Shown here: piece by piece, positions 42,497 to 50,492 of the stretch
Layout: each line of letters begins with the position of its first letter
Position numbering within the stretch: position 1 is the first letter of the stretch
From: Cyanidium caldarium
Lineage: Eukaryota > Rhodophyta > Bangiophyceae > Cyanidiales > Cyanidiaceae
Reading direction: 5' to 3'
DNA length: 64,000 nt
Assembly (NCBI GenBank): GCA_026184775.1
Contig: JANCYW010000007.1
Location: 62,001 to 126,000, forward strand
Made by a program: the position numbers and the translations under genes
The notes under the pieces: model-generated
What the model saw: only the letters and a program-made list of their open reading frames with translations
Databases searched by the model: none
Told to the model about the DNA's origin: nothing

Positions 42497-43353
42497 TAGT
42501 GCTCACCGACCTCCCCTCAGCAGACGCCTCTCGCTGGAACGACTCCGATGCGATACGCTCGTCCTAACCGCGCGAATAGAAGTCGCGCAACGCGAAGAGC
42601 TCTGGCGCCGAGCCGAGTCGATTCGGCGGCGGGAACAATGACGCGCACGCAGAGAGAATCGTGCCCGTGCGCGAGTCTGCACGGCTGGGGCGGTTGGTGA
42701 GCAGCGGGTCGAGCAAGCAGGGTGACTCAGGCAGGATGAGGATAGGGAAGAGCTTCAGAGGCACTGCGGCACGAGCGCAGGCGCTTTTCATTACGTAAAC
42801 AGAACCTTGAGTTGATTCTCTACAAGACGCCCGACGCTCACTGGACTTTGCGGAGGCACGTCTGGGAGTCTGTCAACAGGGTTGTGGCACCGTCTAGAGC
42901 GCCGCACAACCTTTGCTGGACTTTCTGCAAGACCGCCACCCGGTGAGTCTCCTCTCGCTCTCTCCACCTCCACTTTGTTTGCTAAAGCACCCCACTCGCC
43001 TCCCTCTCTTTCCTGCACTCTGCACTCGATCGACACAGTTTCATACCGTATTTCCGCTGCCTACCTCACCGATTCCCCACTGCTCTGCCGCGCCCGTCAC
43101 TCCCCGCATCGACGGGCGTATTTTCGAGCGCTCAGCGCCAGTCGTTGGCGACGAGGCCGGTTCGTGGCCAACGCACCTTCGTGCGCAACTGGAGACTCGG
43201 GAGCATCACCACCTCGCCGTGTAGCGCCAGCGAGGGGTGTTCGATCGGGCTCGAGGGATAACCGGACGTTCGGTGTCTACTCCTGTCGGGCTATTGGGAT
43301 GGGAAACTGAAAGTCATCTGTACTGCATTGCGGGCGAACACGCGGCAGCACCC
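42497..43353. other. divergent promoter region, Snf2 / starch synthase
   Basis: No gene is seen in about 850 bases between two divergent large genes. The part from 42940 to 43080 is pyrimidine-rich. The frame of the starch synthase is open from 43237, so its exact start is uncertain within 120 bases. Confidence 0.4.
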
Positions 43354-46300
43354 ATGAACGCGCACACTCCCTCCGGTTGGGCACAGGTGGGCACACTGCT
43401 GGACGCTCGCTTGTTTCAGCGCTGGTTGCCGGGCTTGGCCAGTGTGGATGACGATCAAGAGGTGCACGACGTGTTGGATGAAGTGCAAGCGCTGTTGCTA
43501 CGGCGCACCTACCCCGTCGTGGGCAACAACAGCCGCGCAGCCGCCGACGCCTCCGCTCAAGCCACCGCCCCATCGAATGTGGTCGCCTTAGGCGACGGGC
43601 TGGCGGTGCGCCTGGGTGAGCTGCTGGCGGCCGAGCGAGCGTTGGTGGCAGCGGTTGGCCATAGCAGCGACGACGTGCGCGATCGCGCCGTGGTGCTGTT
43701 GAACGTGTTGTACGACGGACACCCGCTGCAACTGGCGGGCGACCCGCTGCCGCCGGTGGTGCAGACGGTTGGGCACGCACCGACCGTCTGCATTCCGTTC
43801 AACTCGGAAGAGGACTGTGAGGCGTTCGATGTGGACAGCGCTCTGGTGTACGTTTTCATGCCGGCCGCAGACGATGGACCGGGGACGGCCGACGAGTCAC
43901 CGGCACCGACCCCGGCAGACGGACCGGCCAGCAGTCGCAGCGACCGCCACGGTCTCGTGAATGGCCCGCCATCGAGCGCCCGTGCCAAGAGCACCTGGTC
44001 TGCACAGGATGCCAGCGAACGCGGCGCCTCTGCGGCGGCGGCCTCGTCGCCACCACCATCGACCAGAGCGGAGCGCGGCGTCCCGTCGGGGTGCCGCGCG
44101 ATGTGGCGAGCCTCTCACGGCCACTGGCAGTGCCATCGCATCACCGTGTACGACCAATGCCTGATGGTGCATCTGCCTCCATTTGCGCAGCCCGGCTTTT
44201 ATGACTGGTTCGTGGGCCCGCCGCACACCGATAGCAATGCGGACGCGCGGCTGACCTACCCACTGACGTACGCGGACGTGCCAGGCATGGATTTCCGACG
44301 GCTGCGCGGCCGCTTCATCGTGCAACCCCAAGACTGCCGCTCGCACCGCCTGTACGAGCTGCCGGTGGACCAGGTGAGCGCCGAATGGGATCCCGAGACC
44401 GGCGCGTTGCTGTCACGCGGCAGTTTCGACCACGTGCGCGAGCTGCTGCCGCAGCTGGCCGCCGCCGGCATCACCGGAGTCTATCTGAGCGGCTGCCTGG
44501 AGCGGCGTCTCGACGAGAAGGAGCCCACACCGCACACCGTGGTGGATCGGGCGGCGCCAGCCACCATTCTGGGTGGAGCGGCGCGCTTCCGGCGTCTCTG
44601 CGCCGAGGCCCGCCAACACCACCTGGCGGTGATCGTGGACTCGATGGACCGGGTGTCGCTGGCGCGCTCGCACCGCCGTTACGCCCGCAGCGGCTACGTG
44701 CGCCTGGTGGACGCCAAGCGGCAAGTGCCGGCGTTACCGCATCCGGGCACCGACTGTCACGAGGTGCAGTGGGAGGACACCGCCCTGCCCAATTACCGCC
44801 GCGTGGAGACATGGTACTCGCTCGTCGACGACGTGACCGCCATGGCGGTGCAGTACGGGGCGCGCGGCGTGCGGCTGGACAATGCCCAGTGTGCCCCGTG
44901 CATTCTGCAGCCGGACGTGGAGGAGCTGAACCGCATGGACAACGACAACCAGCCGCACTACTCGCCGGAGGAACGCGCGTTTGGGGATGTGGTGCGGCCC
45001 AACGCCGAAGGCGGCTATTGGAACACCGATGCGGCCGCCGACGGGTACGCCAACCCGCTGCTGGCCAAGCTGGCGCGCGAGCTGTGGGCGACCGATGCGG
45101 CGTTCGTGCTGATCGGCGAGTCGCACTTTCACCGCGAGCGCAGCCTGATCGTCAGCGGCTTTCTGCCGCACACCATGCGCACCGCGGCGCTGCTGGCGGG
45201 CATATCGGGCAAGTCGCTGCGGCGGGACGGCTCGGTGCGCGCGCTGGGGCAGGGACGGTACCTGACGGCGGATGTGCTGGCGCGCCTGTACCGCAACGAC
45301 CTGCACGCCATACCGAGCGGCGCCATCATGGTGAGCGGCACCTGCACCGACACCTCGCCCTATCCCAGTGTATTGTACGGACGGCGCGCCTGGCTCGCCG
45401 TCGACCTGCTCTTCTTCTTGCCGGAGCTGCCGATGCTGCTGTTGGGCGAGGAGGACGGCCGGGCGATGCGCATCAATATGGCCACGGTGTCCGGCGAGGT
45501 GGACGTCGAAACCAATCTGGATCTGGAGCTGCCCAAGTCGCCGCGGCTGCGCACGTCGGGCATGCACCGCGGTGCGAGCGTCGCCACCGGCATGAGTTTG
45601 TTGTCGTTGCAGCAGAGCCACACGGCGGACGTGAAGAAGCTGAAGCGGGCGGGATCGCGCGAGGCCGGCCTCTCCAAGCTCTCCGAGGTGGGCCTGCTGG
45701 CGACGCGGCACGCCGCGCTGAAACCGCCGACGGGGGCGGCAGCGGGCACGGCGGCCGGCACCGCTATGATGCGCTCGCGCTCCACGGACGACATGCTGAA
45801 AGTGTCGATCCGGTCGGTGTCCGCCGAAGATCTGCGCCAACTGGTTCAGGCCGAGGAGGACACGCGTCGGTCGCTCGGGCCCGACCAGGGCTACGACATT
45901 CACCTCATCCGCGGGCACTACGACCATCGACGGCGGCTGCGCAACCAGTATGTGGCGCTGCGCGAGGGCTCCATGGTGGTGCTGACGGTGAAAGGACACG
46001 CCAAGTGGCAGGCGTTTGCGTTTGCGCGTTTCACCGCCGAGCAGGTGCTGCTGGTGTTTATGAACGTGCGCGGCGCGGCGGATGGAGGGGCTTTTGGTGC
46101 GCCGCTGTCGCTGCAGGTGGATTTGCGCCCGCTGGCGGAGGCGCTGGCGCTGTCCGATCGGCGTGACGGCCGCACCGGCTTCGGAGCGTGGGACCGGCTG
46201 GTGCGCATCCGCAACGTCTTCAGCGGCGAGGCGGCGCCCGAGGTGTTCGCCCTGGAGGAGCTGCTGTTTCGGCCGTTCTCCCTGGTGCTGCAGCCGCTGG

Positions 46301-48582
46301 AGACGTGCCTGCTGGAGGTGGTGCCGGAACCGTTGCCGCCGCCGGCGGGGGGTGATTCGCTGTTTCAGACGCACCGGCGCATGTCGGCATCACGGCTGGT
46401 GGCCGACGACGAGACGCTGCAGGATCCGCGCGCCAACTGGTACGCCGGCCGCCTGGCGCGCCACTGTTCCACGCTGACCGACTTTGCACCGGCGCTGCTG
46501 CAGCTGTACGAGGATCTGGTGTCGAGGGCGGGGGTGGCCTCGGCCGCGGCGCGCTACCTGACGCGGCTGTGTCTGCAGCGCTCCTCGATGCTGGATGGCG
46601 AGAACGAGTACCCGCCTCAGGGTTTTGCAGCAGTGTGCGGCGAGCGCCTCATCGCTTACCTGATGTACATGTCCACTGCGGGCGCGCCTGCGGTGCGGGA
46701 CCTGGCGCGTGCCGCCCTCTCCGGCAACCGCATGGGCCCGATCGTATTGTTCAGCCCGGAGCTGGGACGTTTCTCGACGGCCGGCGGCCTGGGTACCATG
46801 ATCGACGAGCTGTCCAAAGGACTGGCGGACCTCGGGCTGGAGGTGTACGTGATCACGCCGTACTACACCTTCAACCGCAAGGGCGAGATGCGCTACCTGG
46901 AGCGCGATGGCATCCGCTGGAGCCGCAACGTGGACGTGCGCATCGGGAACGTGGGCGTGGCGACGCTGGGCGTGTTCGAGGGCCGCGAGAACGGCGTCAA
47001 CCTGATCTTTTTCGAGAATCACACCTACTTTCCCCGCGTGTACCAGGATCTGGGCTCGCAAGCGCGCGCCACGGAGATGTTGGTGGTGGCCGACCGCGGT
47101 GTGCTGGAGATCTGTTGCCATAAGCAGCTGCGACCGAGCCTGCTGGTGACCAACGATTGGATGGGCGGGCTGGTGCCGGCCTACGGGCGGCTGGGCTATT
47201 TCGGCGGCTACTTTGACGACACCTGCTTCTTTCACATCGTGCACAATTTGGGCGACTCGGCGTACGAGGGGCGCCTCTACCCGGGGCCGCACGAGGGTGC
47301 CTTCGAGTACATCCACCACCTGCCGCGGGATGTGCTGGTGGACCCGATGTGGAACCGGGTGGTGGTGAACCCGAGTCGCGCCGCCTTCAAGTGCGCGCAC
47401 AGCTGGGGCACCGTCTCCCGGAGCTACCTGGAAGAGCTGCTGTCGCTGCATCCGCTGCGCGACGTGATGCAGATCTGCCGGGCGCCGTTCGGCACCTCCA
47501 ACGGCATCCGCGTCGCCGACCGCCTGGCGCTGCTGCAGCGGGTGGCCGGCTCGCACGACGAAGCCAAGGCGGCGCTGCAATCGCGCTACTTTGGGCTGGT
47601 GGATGCGTCGATCCCGGTGTTCGCTTTTGTGGGTCGGCTGACCAGTCAGAAGGGCGTGCATCTGATTCTGTCGGCGGTGCCGACGCTGATGAATCTGCCC
47701 AGCGGTGGTAAGTGCCAAGTGCTCATCGGCGGCATGGCCAACCGCGCCGACCCGTACGGCGCCGACTGCGCGCGCCGCTGCGACGAGTTTCGGGCGCGCT
47801 ACGCCGGCCACTTTTACGCCGAGCCAGACGCGTTTTTCACCAACGGGCCGCTGGCCAATCTGGGCGCCGACTTTTGCCTGATGCCGTCGGTGTTCGAGCC
47901 CGGCGGCATCGTGCAGCAGGAGTTTTTCGTGGCCGGCACGCCGGTGGTCGCCTTTCGCACCGGCGGCCTGCGCGACACCGTCATCGAGTGGGACCCGGTG
48001 GAGCTGACCGGCTCCGGTTTCGTGTTCAGCGAGTACAATCTGGACGATTTCCTGGCGGCCTGTAAGCGGGCGCTACGGGTGTATGCCAAGAGCGACGAGT
48101 ACCACCTGCTGCGGGAGTCGGCGCGCGCGTGCACCGTCGATGTGGCGCAGGTGGCGTTTGCGTGGTCGCGGGAGTTTCACCGGGTGAAGAATATCGTGCC
48201 GGCCAAGGACGAGCTGCTGGCCGCGGAGTGGGAGCAGCTACGCGCGCAGGCGTCCACGACGGCGGCGGCGACGGCGGCGACGGCGGATCTGTTCGAGCGC
48301 ACCCGGGCAGTGCGGGTGTCGTGGCCGGATGCCAGCGCCAAGGCTGTGTCGGTGAAGGGATCGTTCGATGGGTGGAACAGGGAATGGCTGCTGCAGAAAG
48401 AGGATGAGGGACCTGGTGTGGAGCGTTGGGGTGTTACGCTGCAGCTGCCGGCAGGCACGTATCATCTCAAGTTCAAGGTGGACGGCGAGTGGCTGGTAGG
48501 CAAGCATATGTCCACCAGCAACGACGGCGGCATCGTGAATAATATCGTGCGGGTGGATGCATGGGAGAGGGAGGAGGAGTAA
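43354..48582 (+). CDS. multidomain starch synthase: GH13-like + GT5 + CBM48
   Basis: About 1742 residues, counting from the Met at 43354 (MNAHTPSGWAQ; an upstream Met at 43237 adds 39). A GH13/alpha-amylase-like barrel with beta domain lies at about residues 350-990: LPQLAAAGITGVYLSG, ARGVRLDNAQ with the nucleophile-position Asp, VLIGESHF with the acid Glu, and a NHD-like site replaced by SGTCTDT. A GT5 starch synthase follows at about 1125-1610: GRFSTAGGLGTMIDELSKG, VTNDWMGGLVPAYG, FVGRLTSQKGVHLIL, SVFEPGGIVQQEFF. A CBM48-like module (VKGSFDGWNREW to YHLKFKVDGEW) ends it. There is no transit peptide, so it is probably cytosolic, as expected for floridean starch, likely using UDP-glucose. The amylase-GT5 order recalls fungal alpha-glucan synthases, but no membrane segments are present. 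Confidence 0.9.
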   Translation: MNAHTPSGWAQVGTLLDARLFQRWLPGLASVDDDQEVHDVLDEVQALLLRRTYPVVGNNSRAAADASAQATAPSNVVALGDGLAVRLGELLAAERALVAAVGHSSDDVRDRAVVLLNVLYDGHPLQLAGDPLPPVVQTVGHAPTVCIPFNSEEDCEAFDVDSALVYVFMPAADDGPGTADESPAPTPADGPASSRSDRHGLVNGPPSSARAKSTWSAQDASERGASAAAASSPPPSTRAERGVPSGCRAMWRASHGHWQCHRITVYDQCLMVHLPPFAQPGFYDWFVGPPHTDSNADARLTYPLTYADVPGMDFRRLRGRFIVQPQDCRSHRLYELPVDQVSAEWDPETGALLSRGSFDHVRELLPQLAAAGITGVYLSGCLERRLDEKEPTPHTVVDRAAPATILGGAARFRRLCAEARQHHLAVIVDSMDRVSLARSHRRYARSGYVRLVDAKRQVPALPHPGTDCHEVQWEDTALPNYRRVETWYSLVDDVTAMAVQYGARGVRLDNAQCAPCILQPDVEELNRMDNDNQPHYSPEERAFGDVVRPNAEGGYWNTDAAADGYANPLLAKLARELWATDAAFVLIGESHFHRERSLIVSGFLPHTMRTAALLAGISGKSLRRDGSVRALGQGRYLTADVLARLYRNDLHAIPSGAIMVSGTCTDTSPYPSVLYGRRAWLAVDLLFFLPELPMLLLGEEDGRAMRINMATVSGEVDVETNLDLELPKSPRLRTSGMHRGASVATGMSLLSLQQSHTADVKKLKRAGSREAGLSKLSEVGLLATRHAALKPPTGAAAGTAAGTAMMRSRSTDDMLKVSIRSVSAEDLRQLVQAEEDTRRSLGPDQGYDIHLIRGHYDHRRRLRNQYVALREGSMVVLTVKGHAKWQAFAFARFTAEQVLLVFMNVRGAADGGAFGAPLSLQVDLRPLAEALALSDRRDGRTGFGAWDRLVRIRNVFSGEAAPEVFALEELLFRPFSLVLQPLETCLLEVVPEPLPPPAGGDSLFQTHRRMSASRLVADDETLQDPRANWYAGRLARHCSTLTDFAPALLQLYEDLVSRAGVASAAARYLTRLCLQRSSMLDGENEYPPQGFAAVCGERLIAYLMYMSTAGAPAVRDLARAALSGNRMGPIVLFSPELGRFSTAGGLGTMIDELSKGLADLGLEVYVITPYYTFNRKGEMRYLERDGIRWSRNVDVRIGNVGVATLGVFEGRENGVNLIFFENHTYFPRVYQDLGSQARATEMLVVADRGVLEICCHKQLRPSLLVTNDWMGGLVPAYGRLGYFGGYFDDTCFFHIVHNLGDSAYEGRLYPGPHEGAFEYIHHLPRDVLVDPMWNRVVVNPSRAAFKCAHSWGTVSRSYLEELLSLHPLRDVMQICRAPFGTSNGIRVADRLALLQRVAGSHDEAKAALQSRYFGLVDASIPVFAFVGRLTSQKGVHLILSAVPTLMNLPSGGKCQVLIGGMANRADPYGADCARRCDEFRARYAGHFYAEPDAFFTNGPLANLGADFCLMPSVFEPGGIVQQEFFVAGTPVVAFRTGGLRDTVIEWDPVELTGSGFVFSEYNLDDFLAACKRALRVYAKSDEYHLLRESARACTVDVAQVAFAWSREFHRVKNIVPAKDELLAAEWEQLRAQASTTAAATAATADLFERTRAVRVSWPDASAKAVSVKGSFDGWNREWLLQKEDEGPGVERWGVTLQLPAGTYHLKFKVDGEWLVGKHMSTSNDGGIVNNIVRVDAWEREEE

Positions 48583-48628: not shown

Positions 48629-49258
48629 ATGGCCAACCCGCTGGATCACACCATGTGCGACTACCATCCGCAGCATCCGTATCGCCGGTTGAGCCACCAG
48701 CACCGCCGCAACGAGCAGCGCTCGCACGACTGGATGCGGAGTTGTTTCCAGACACGGTACGGCAAGCCGAGCAAGTCGCTGGTGCTGTTCGGGGACTGGG
48801 ATACGCGCGACCACCACCGGAAGGGTAGCTCGCCGACCAAGGGCATGCGTATCTGGGAGTTGCTTGAGAAATGTGGTTACGATATGCCCCTCGTTGATGA
48901 GGTGTACACCAACAAGCGGTGTCCGGTGTGCAGTTGTGGGGAGACGAAGACGCGTAGGCAGCACACCGATACGCGCAAGGGGAGGGAGAGGAAGGAGCGC
49001 ACAGTATGGCGTTGGGTGCCGTTTCAGAACACGGAGTGCGAGTGGACACACAACCGGAACAGCAATGCCATACTCAACCCACTGCGGGTAATGTTGGTCG
49101 TTTTGCGTGGCCTTCCACGCCCGGCCTATGTAGGTTGTCCTCCTCGAGGTGGTGATTCGAAGAGGCATTCCCTGCATCCTCCCGTCGTCCGTCCCGCAAC
49201 ACGCGCCCGATCGATGCAATCGGCGCGCGGATCGGATCGCGCGTCGTGTGTCTCGTGA
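48629..49258 (+). pseudogene. C-terminal remnant of a Fanzor (eukaryotic TnpB-like) nuclease
   Basis: The frame from 48629 encodes a piece closely resembling the C-terminal RuvC part of Fanzor proteins of eukaryotic mobile elements. In order: YRRLSHQHRRNEQRSHDWM and the RYGKP helix; VLFGDWDTRDHHRKG followed by SPTKGMRIWELLEKCGYDM, the family's G-D-W and P-T-K-G signature; LVDEVYTNKRCPVC, the RuvC glutamate and first zinc-ribbon cysteines; and NTECEWTHNRNSNAILN. The last has Asn where the third RuvC acid (NRD) is expected, and one cysteine of the second zinc pair is absent. No N-terminal half or WED/REC region is present, since the intact starch synthase ends at 48582. This is a dead fragment of about 155 residues ending near 49095; the rest of the frame is not homologous. 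Confidence 0.85.
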
Positions 49259-49313: not shown

Positions 49314-50492
49314 ATGCGGGTGGTCAACGCCCACTTGGGCTTATTATCGGATGCGGAAATGTGCTGGATGATCCGTTCAGCACACGACGAACAGCAACGA
49401 CGCGTCGACGCTGCCTTGGAGGAGGCCCGAGTGCGCGCCCGAGTCTACCGGGAGCTCGTGCAAGCAGACGATCTCCCAGCGTCAGGGAAGCCGGGTGCCC
49501 CCGATGCCTCTTGCGAACCTTCTACCGGACTCGACTCCGAGCACTGCCCCTATTCCGCCCACCACTGGACTCGACGAGTGCAGGAGACGGAGCGCCGACT
49601 CTCTCAGCGGCTGCCGCACTGGCGAACACCCGACGGACGTCTGGCATACCCGCCGCGAGCGTGTGATAGCGAGATCATCCTCCTATCCAATTTCGGCTCT
49701 GGTCTGCAGTTCATGTCGGCGGCGCGACAACAGCGCCAGCACTTGCTGGCGCTCCAGGCGCGACTAGGACGCTATCTCGCGGCGAGCAAGTTGAGCGCGA
49801 CGGCGGTGCTACAAATATGCAACCAACGACCGGAGACGCCCGAAGTGCTGCACTGCTGTCTCGCCATCGACGCTCACTCGCCGCACTTTACAGAAGCGTG
49901 GACTCCAGTGGAGGAACAGGACGTGCTCGCCGCCGTGGCCGAATGCTTGCCGCCGCACACCGACTTTACCACCGTCGACGAGCACGGCCGCCACGAGGCG
50001 CTGGATCCGCGTCTCTCACAGCCGCTGCCATACGCTTCCGTCTTGGGCGAGGCACGTACGCGACTGGATGCGGAGATGGACCGACTGGAGCGCAAGTACC
50101 GCGGGATAGCGTCGCCGCCACCGCCGACCGACGGACGATTGCCGCCCGGGGAGCAGCCGCCCGATGCGCAGGAGATGCAGCTGGTGAAGGAATGGGCGGC
50201 GCAGACGAGTGCGGCGGAACGGGCAGAACGGGCGACTCAGCATGGCGGCAGTGGCGGCGGCGTACTCGGAGAGGCGATGACACCGGAGGTGAGGAAGCGG
50301 CGACCGCGTTGCGCGCCACGTCATCGATCCGCAACGTCGACCGGCCATTCATCGCCGACGCCGACCGAATGGCCGACGATGAGCACCGCTTTTCGCGACC
50401 CCCACAGCGCCGAGGACGAGCAGGAGTGGGTGGCTGAGCACGCGCCCGCTTACCGTCGCACCGCCGCCGCGGATGACGATGCCGAGGCGTGA
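49314..50492 (+). CDS. RPC9: RNA polymerase III subunit RPC9 (Rpc17/CRCP)
   Basis: About 392 residues. The N-terminus MRVVNAHLGLLSDAEMCWMI matches the Rpb4-family start of RPC9. A core near residues 155-225, with ASKLSATAVLQICNQRPET and then TPVEEQDVLAAVAECLP, matches the HRDC-like helices of CRCP/Rpc17, which pair with RPC8 to form the Pol III stalk. The family is normally 120-160 residues. Here there is an insertion after the first helix (about residues 45-145) and a disordered, charged C-terminal tail of about 150 residues. The frame opens at 49149, but the conserved block fixes the start at 49314, 220 bases after the Fanzor remnant. Confidence 0.78.
   Translation: MRVVNAHLGLLSDAEMCWMIRSAHDEQQRRVDAALEEARVRARVYRELVQADDLPASGKPGAPDASCEPSTGLDSEHCPYSAHHWTRRVQETERRLSQRLPHWRTPDGRLAYPPRACDSEIILLSNFGSGLQFMSAARQQRQHLLALQARLGRYLAASKLSATAVLQICNQRPETPEVLHCCLAIDAHSPHFTEAWTPVEEQDVLAAVAECLPPHTDFTTVDEHGRHEALDPRLSQPLPYASVLGEARTRLDAEMDRLERKYRGIASPPPPTDGRLPPGEQPPDAQEMQLVKEWAAQTSAAERAERATQHGGSGGGVLGEAMTPEVRKRRPRCAPRHRSATSTGHSSPTPTEWPTMSTAFRDPHSAEDEQEWVAEHAPAYRRTAAADDDAEA

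Follow-up and report, generated by a model that had tools for sequence, protein, structure and literature searches.

An open frame directly behind a starch synthase gene of the red alga Cyanidium caldarium is, with high probability, best explained as the tail of a Fanzor1 gene that was cut mid-gene, likely a defunct mobile-element copy. Fanzors are eukaryotic relatives of CRISPR nucleases. The frame lies in a stretch of 64,000 nucleotides, here called the window, and had been proposed from the letters alone to be the C-terminal remnant of a Fanzor nuclease; comparison of the sequences confirms that the observation of a Fanzor frame is real and beyond chance. The remnant by itself is a fossil; the parts worth following are an intact copy elsewhere in the genome and a conserved module at the 3' ends of other copies.

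By BLASTP, the remnant aligns with residues 838-1009 of P0001, the 1,087-residue product of the intact copy, at 61% identity (106 of 173 columns, E 1e-68), and since it aligns with these residues only, RuvC-I and everything N-terminal are gone. It covers about 16% of P0001, about a sixth of the protein and not the last third estimated from the window alone. The GDW, PTKG, and VDE motifs and the partial zinc ribbon named in the original prediction are all present in the frame (PTKG at residues 69-72 and VDE at residues 89-91, read from the translation), and its start, placed less than 50 bases behind the starch synthase, lies 46 bases after that stop codon. The first RuvC acid is absent through the truncation, the RuvC-II glutamate is kept, and the RuvC-III aspartate has become asparagine, leaving the set of three incomplete. 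Likewise, the zinc ribbon keeps three of its four cysteines (C98, C101, and C137), the fourth position being F132, equivalent to C970 of P0001. The last 37 residues of the remnant have no alignment with P0001; a copy on contig C2 matches up to residue 205. Pfam finds a TNB domain (Cas12f/TnpB group) alone in the frame, with E 1.3e-4 and 22.5 bits against a curated cut-off of 26.3, which taken by itself is suggestive only.

Table 1. Features of the Fanzor1 remnant and its neighbors in the window.
Feature	Position	Strand	Description	Basis
Upstream starch/glycogen synthase frame	43237..48582	+	1,781 aa as listed from GTG; stop 48580-48582	
Open frame with predicted Fanzor1 C-terminal remnant	48629..49258	+	209 aa; stop 49256-49258	Sequence, P0001 alignment
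DNA homology to the other Fanzor copies of the genome	48630..49242	+	80% to L010, 619 columns	
GDW motif	48791..48799	+	Remnant residues 55-57	Aligned with GDW of SpuFz1
RuvC-II glutamate, kept	48899..48901	+	E91	Aligned with P0001 E928, via P0001 with SpuFz1 E541 (numbering as in PMC11423790)
Zinc ligand, lost	49022..49024	+	Phe132 in remnant, Cys970 in P0001	
RuvC-III aspartate, lost	49058..49060	+	Asn144 in remnant, Asp982 in P0001 (SpuFz1 D606)	
Downstream open frame	49314..50492	+	Listed frame starts at 49149, overlapping the remnant; probable start ATG at 49314	No Pfam match at E<=1

Comparison with the sequences of solved structures specifies the family. At E<=10, the window frame matches only SpuFz1 (E 0.0015) and PpFz1 (E 0.016), which, with the identity to P0001, upholds the proposed Fanzor tail and places it in Fanzor1. 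P0001 matches PpFz1 (E 2.9e-11), SpuFz1 (E 2.6e-9), and, weakly, GtFz1 (E 0.26); the five solved sequences found at E<=1 are these three Fanzor1 proteins and two unrelated ones. On P0001, PpFz1 aligns at residues 212-465 (i-Evalue 0.008), 672-799 (34), and 873-977 (0.0013), and SpuFz1 at residues 308-469 (0.45) and 697-1005 (1.6e-5); P0001 is a large protein, and the N-terminal matches to both are weak. The catalytic residues described for SpuFz1, D383, E541, and D606 (PMC11423790), align with D759, E928, and D982 of P0001 (constant offset 394, counted by hand), and the translation of P0001 contains all three acids together with four zinc cysteines (C935, C938, C970, and C975). A TDG motif has been described for the Fanzor1 WED domain (PMC10711439); P0001 has TNR at residues 702-704, and the copies on C1, C2, and C14 (L010-L012) have TNG, a departure in a soft, non-catalytic feature. 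Together, the alignments support a Fanzor1 C-terminal remnant in the window.

Two profile matches could point instead to a prokaryotic TnpB of the IS605/IS607 type acquired by horizontal transfer: P0001 matches the NCBIfam model guided_TnpB at residues 915-991 (E 1.8e-9) and a PHROG family annotated as transposase (E 2.3e-9). Both matches arise because the zinc-ribbon region is common to the two groups, and the NCBIfam scores, 37.4 bits for P0001 and 16.4 bits for the window frame, fall far under the cut-off of 100 bits. Moreover, P0001 has 1,087 residues against the 389 positions of the TnpB model, its N-terminal part retains the weak matches to PpFz1 (212-465) and SpuFz1 (308-469), and no TnpB or Cas12f structure is among its solved-sequence matches at E<=1. 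A search for resolvase-type TnpA gave no match in the genome at E<=1e-3, whereas the same search was positive in 10 of 14 control genomes. We therefore regard a TnpB origin as exceedingly improbable and retain the assignment to Fanzor1. A comparison of P0001 with a large set of genome and metagenome proteins (7,997 candidates scored) gave no match at E<=1e-3, a result of little weight given the uncertain eukaryote share of the set.

We searched the genome (8,787,356 bases in 20 contigs) for further copies, examining as sequence 20 regions and 7 short ones among the match sites. The tail in the window has 43 matches at E<=1e-3, which are matches and not elements, as some share one element; at least 21 of them are no more than 15 kb from a contig end (the far ends of C4, C5, C17, and C18 not counted). 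The suggestion that intact copies exist elsewhere holds for one locus: among the matches listed (42 of 70 candidates scored), a single stop-free full-length copy is found, the uninterrupted P0001 gene at C3:486071-489331 (L013:3571-6834), which encodes 1,087 residues counted from its first ATG. The gene is intact in frame, and a working enzyme is predicted from it. A copy on C13 is near-complete (residues 1-1060, 89%) and has three stops. The copies on C1, C2, and C14 have 97-99% in common over about 4 kb and contain stops, with the catalytic glutamate changed to glycine and the third aspartate to asparagine. N-terminal parts (before residue 500) occur at six loci, on C1, C2, C3, C12, C13, and C14, in the same 42 of 70 candidates. 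The 280 bases at the 5' end of the intact element are present three times, and the C1/C2/C14 group has a different 5' end of its own. At the remaining examined loci there are either just tails or fragments of other kinds, several beginning at residues 870-922; most sister copies in the examined loci are partial, with the 3' parts kept. In the three long copies L013, L014, and L010, no inverted repeats join the two ends. Between L013 and L014, dN/dS is 0.18 over 133 tail codons and 0.48 over 958 codons, and between the N-termini of the intact and C12 copies it is 0.72.

Several further observations concern these loci. The contig ends with tail matches include L020, L022, L023, and L024; many tail matches (L020-L028) lie inside a common subtelomeric repeat, which in L020 is tandem with a period of 1,789 bases. 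Inverted Fanzor tail pieces are found just upstream of the element 5' end at L034:736-1044 (C12) and L013:3026-3166, and may belong either to the element or to an older copy. At L019:4022-5025 there is a more diverged Fanzor copy, with 39-50% identity to P0001, that carries DPG at the RuvC-I site and may represent a second lineage. Among the three families searched as transposase candidates (Helitron_like_N, RVT_1, and resolvase), RVT_1 has a single listed match in the genome (G000:C3:360323-360664), inside a 947-residue frame that might be telomerase.

Alignment of the other Fanzor copies identified a module of about 155 nt common to them at and after the end of the frame. In the intact copy it occupies L013:6740-6901, overlapping the last 31 or so codons of P0001 (frame end 6834); in L012, L017, L028, and the window, the alignment does not contain it. 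A model with six helices was built from 10 of the 15 alignment rows, leaving out L013, L014, L015:2895-3059, L026, and L024. In the examined loci it has 28 matches at E<1e-4, 10 of which are its own rows: 19, the training rows included, in the 20 loci and window, and 9 in new loci, two of these lying across palindromes on the opposite strand. Held-out copies were recovered with 85 bits (L015:6700), 60 (L026), 54 (L014), 49 (L013), and 31 (L015:2884).

The evidence for a structured RNA is of uneven strength. In an alignment of 18 matches, drawn from 13 of the 20 loci and itself fitted to the structure, the share of paired cells is 81%, compared with 33-39% when partners are slid, and 16 pairs are changed on both sides, compared with 7.4 in shuffles; for all five measures, 0 of 500 shuffles reach the observed value. 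In the unfitted 10-row alignment that was the source of the stems, 4 to 130 of 500 shuffles reach the observed values. For two sequences folded singly, stability does not clearly exceed that of shuffles (z -0.96 and -0.65), and over the five held-out copies a sequence-only model totals 273 bits against 280 for the structure model, so that structure adds little to their recognition. RNAalifold on a first MAFFT alignment gave weak structure (-3.88 kcal/mol), which was replaced by the stems from the 10-row alignment, and Rfam gave no match at the gathering score for L013, L018, and L009. Because the covariation is seen on the fitted alignment, with a weaker unfitted test, folds close to shuffles, and a sequence-only model that does nearly as well, we designate the module a candidate omega RNA, with firm sequence conservation and moderate support for structure. 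Of the omega-like RNAs anticipated by the original prediction, what stands is accordingly a conserved 3' module; its identity as such an RNA is a candidate one.

Directly downstream of the module in the intact copy there is a second, partial copy of its last part (L013:6906-6947; sequence-only model, E 0.02), and something similar is seen by eye in L010 and L014. The module also occurs in outward-facing inverted pairs, at L029:563-993 (C2:183163-183593), L030:602-785, L032:391-628, and L015:6056-6847. The pair in L029 is a palindrome of about 430 bases with 90-nt arms that are 89% complementary, and contains no Fanzor match at E<=1. Such pairs may be non-autonomous derivatives with RNA modules for both ends. 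It is conceivable, though we think it unlikely, that they belong to a living Fanzor1 system, in which the intact gene on C3 would supply the nuclease, the module overlapping its last codons would supply the guide RNA, and the gene-free modules spread in small palindromes, both ends of which are RNA, would provide dispersed guides acting in trans for the one nuclease.

The copy in the window shows several signs of decay. Its homology starts at the same base (48629/48630) against all five longer copies (L010-L014), abruptly and in mid-frame (residue 838), and the 5' break therefore belongs to the window copy, as the longer ones continue through the same point. The conserved 3' module was not found between window positions 48500 and 50500 in a model search with filters off, the best score being 5.2 bits, antisense; on the plus strand near the tail the model gives 0.9 and 0.4 bits, compared with 49 in L013, 54 in L014, and 130-164 in the training copies. 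Against its nearest relative, L010, differences are spread over the codon positions as 36/29/27, with a dN/dS of 0.84; values for the other three nearest are 0.79 (L011), 0.84 (L012), and 0.89 (the piece at L015:6381-6734). Part of this evenness may stem from the relatives, since L010-L012 are themselves pseudogenes with stops. Toward more distant copies dN/dS is lower, at 0.67 (L015:3157-3453), 0.69 (L016), 0.56 (L018), 0.44 (P0001), and 0.41 (L014); this is most simply read as constraint acting in the active lineage, but pairwise values do not assign change to a branch. The window copy is thus very likely dead, to judge from its sequence, and has probably drifted under little or no selection since its truncation.

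An alternative is that a host gene recruited the Fanzor tail as a domain binding target nucleic acid, expressed as a small protein. The frame is free of stops over the 177 codons compared, a possible sign of retained function, and the VDE and GDW motifs are still there. Stop-free frames are, however, common in simulated neutral drift, where 29% of runs still lack a stop after 46 substitutions, making the open frame unremarkable and weak as evidence. Since a zinc cysteine and the RuvC-III aspartate are lost, and changes are even over the codon positions, with dN/dS of 0.79-0.84 to L010-L012, we hold recruitment by the host to be very improbable. As a dead element copy, the remnant most likely does nothing today.

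The C-terminal AMPK1_CBM domain of the starch synthase is matched by Pfam over positions 3-81 of 85 and followed by the stop, so the synthase seems undamaged. The frame of this enzyme is very long (1,781 aa), with its AMPK-type glycogen-binding module at the C-terminus, and Pfam finds nothing in the part that precedes residue 1169. Between its stop and the probable downstream start codon lie 731 bases, 613 of them Fanzor-derived; a mean intergenic length of 319.7 bp has been given for CDCA (PMC9812998), which we take as C. caldarium. The 2-kb GC values across the window range from 0.63 to 0.69.

How the remnant came to be in this place is a question within the reading as a dead Fanzor1 tail. 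No convincing target-site duplication is found at the window junctions, where shared words of 7-9 bases lie at a distance from the breakpoints or within the remnant, so that the arrival of an already short copy and the later trimming of a longer one are not separable. Loss of most of an originally complete element at the site would account for the absence of the 3' module as well, by which both element ends are lost here, and L010 and L014 are long elements with internal damage. Sister copies are, however, 5'-truncated at varied points (residues 870 and 922 in L015, 871 in L016, 877 in L017, and 903 in L018); for the Fanzor1 elements of Chlamydomonas, Bao and Jurka explain this pattern by the process of copying (PMC3627910). 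We judge deletion of a complete element to fall a little short of an even chance.

These data are best explained as follows. The parent element is about 3.6 kb long (the span common to two copies) and has one long gene, whose product of about 1,087 residues is predicted, by its homology to SpuFz1 and PpFz1, to be an RNA-guided nuclease. The last codons of this gene overlap the 3' module of about 155 nt, the likely scaffold of an omega RNA, whose guide would be read from the DNA flanking the module. A copy of the element likely landed behind the starch synthase gene, or was shortened there, keeping the frame from residue 838 to about 1010 and no 3' module, and has probably drifted since with little or no selection.

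Fanzor1 in red algae has already been published, and the remnant is ordinary in that respect. From the related alga Cyanidioschyzon merolae, some 150 old Fanzor1 copies, named CMe-1A, were described by Bao and Jurka (2013; PMC3627910), and the remnant and the intact gene are therefore a further case of a known family; a search of the open-access literature found no paper joining Fanzor and Cyanidium. The value of the remnant is as a pointer to an 8.8-Mb genome in 20 contigs that contains one stop-free Fanzor1, one near-complete copy with stops, many mapped fragments, and a conserved RNA-like 3' module. Haploid clones and transformation have been described for C. caldarium (PMC13353863), so the native role of a Fanzor, for the element or for its host, could be directly testable in this alga.

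As described in PMC3627910, CMe-1A resembles the element here in being a Fanzor1 of a cyanidiophycean red alga, about 3 kb long and present in many diverged copies, and it has no terminal inverted repeats and a transposon class given as unknown. It differs, in a comparison by description only, in its roughly 150 copies, against 43 tail matches here, and no guide RNA is named in the account of it. The Fanzor1 elements CRe-1, CRe-2, and CRe-3 of Chlamydomonas reinhardtii are similar in their frequent 5' truncation and over-abundant 3' ends, but are treated among the Helitrons in the same paper; a Helitron_like_N search here gave no match in the genome and was silent in all 14 controls, and is thus uninformative. 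PpFz1 of Parasitella parasitica (9cf0) is the best solved-sequence match of P0001, through three stretches of which the middle one is insignificant alone, but it is distant, as the E-value of the window remnant indicates. SpuFz1 of Spizellomyces punctatus (8gkh and others), which aligns with P0001 in its three RuvC acids and zinc ribbon, is smaller, with about 640 residues (the chain of 1032 includes a fusion partner) against 1,087. In the descriptions of SpuFz1 (PMC10432273, PMC11423790), the gene is followed on its 3' side by a conserved non-coding RNA, in the same place as the candidate here, with a scaffold of about 75 nt that spans a short inverted repeat, compared with about 155 nt in the C. 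caldarium module.
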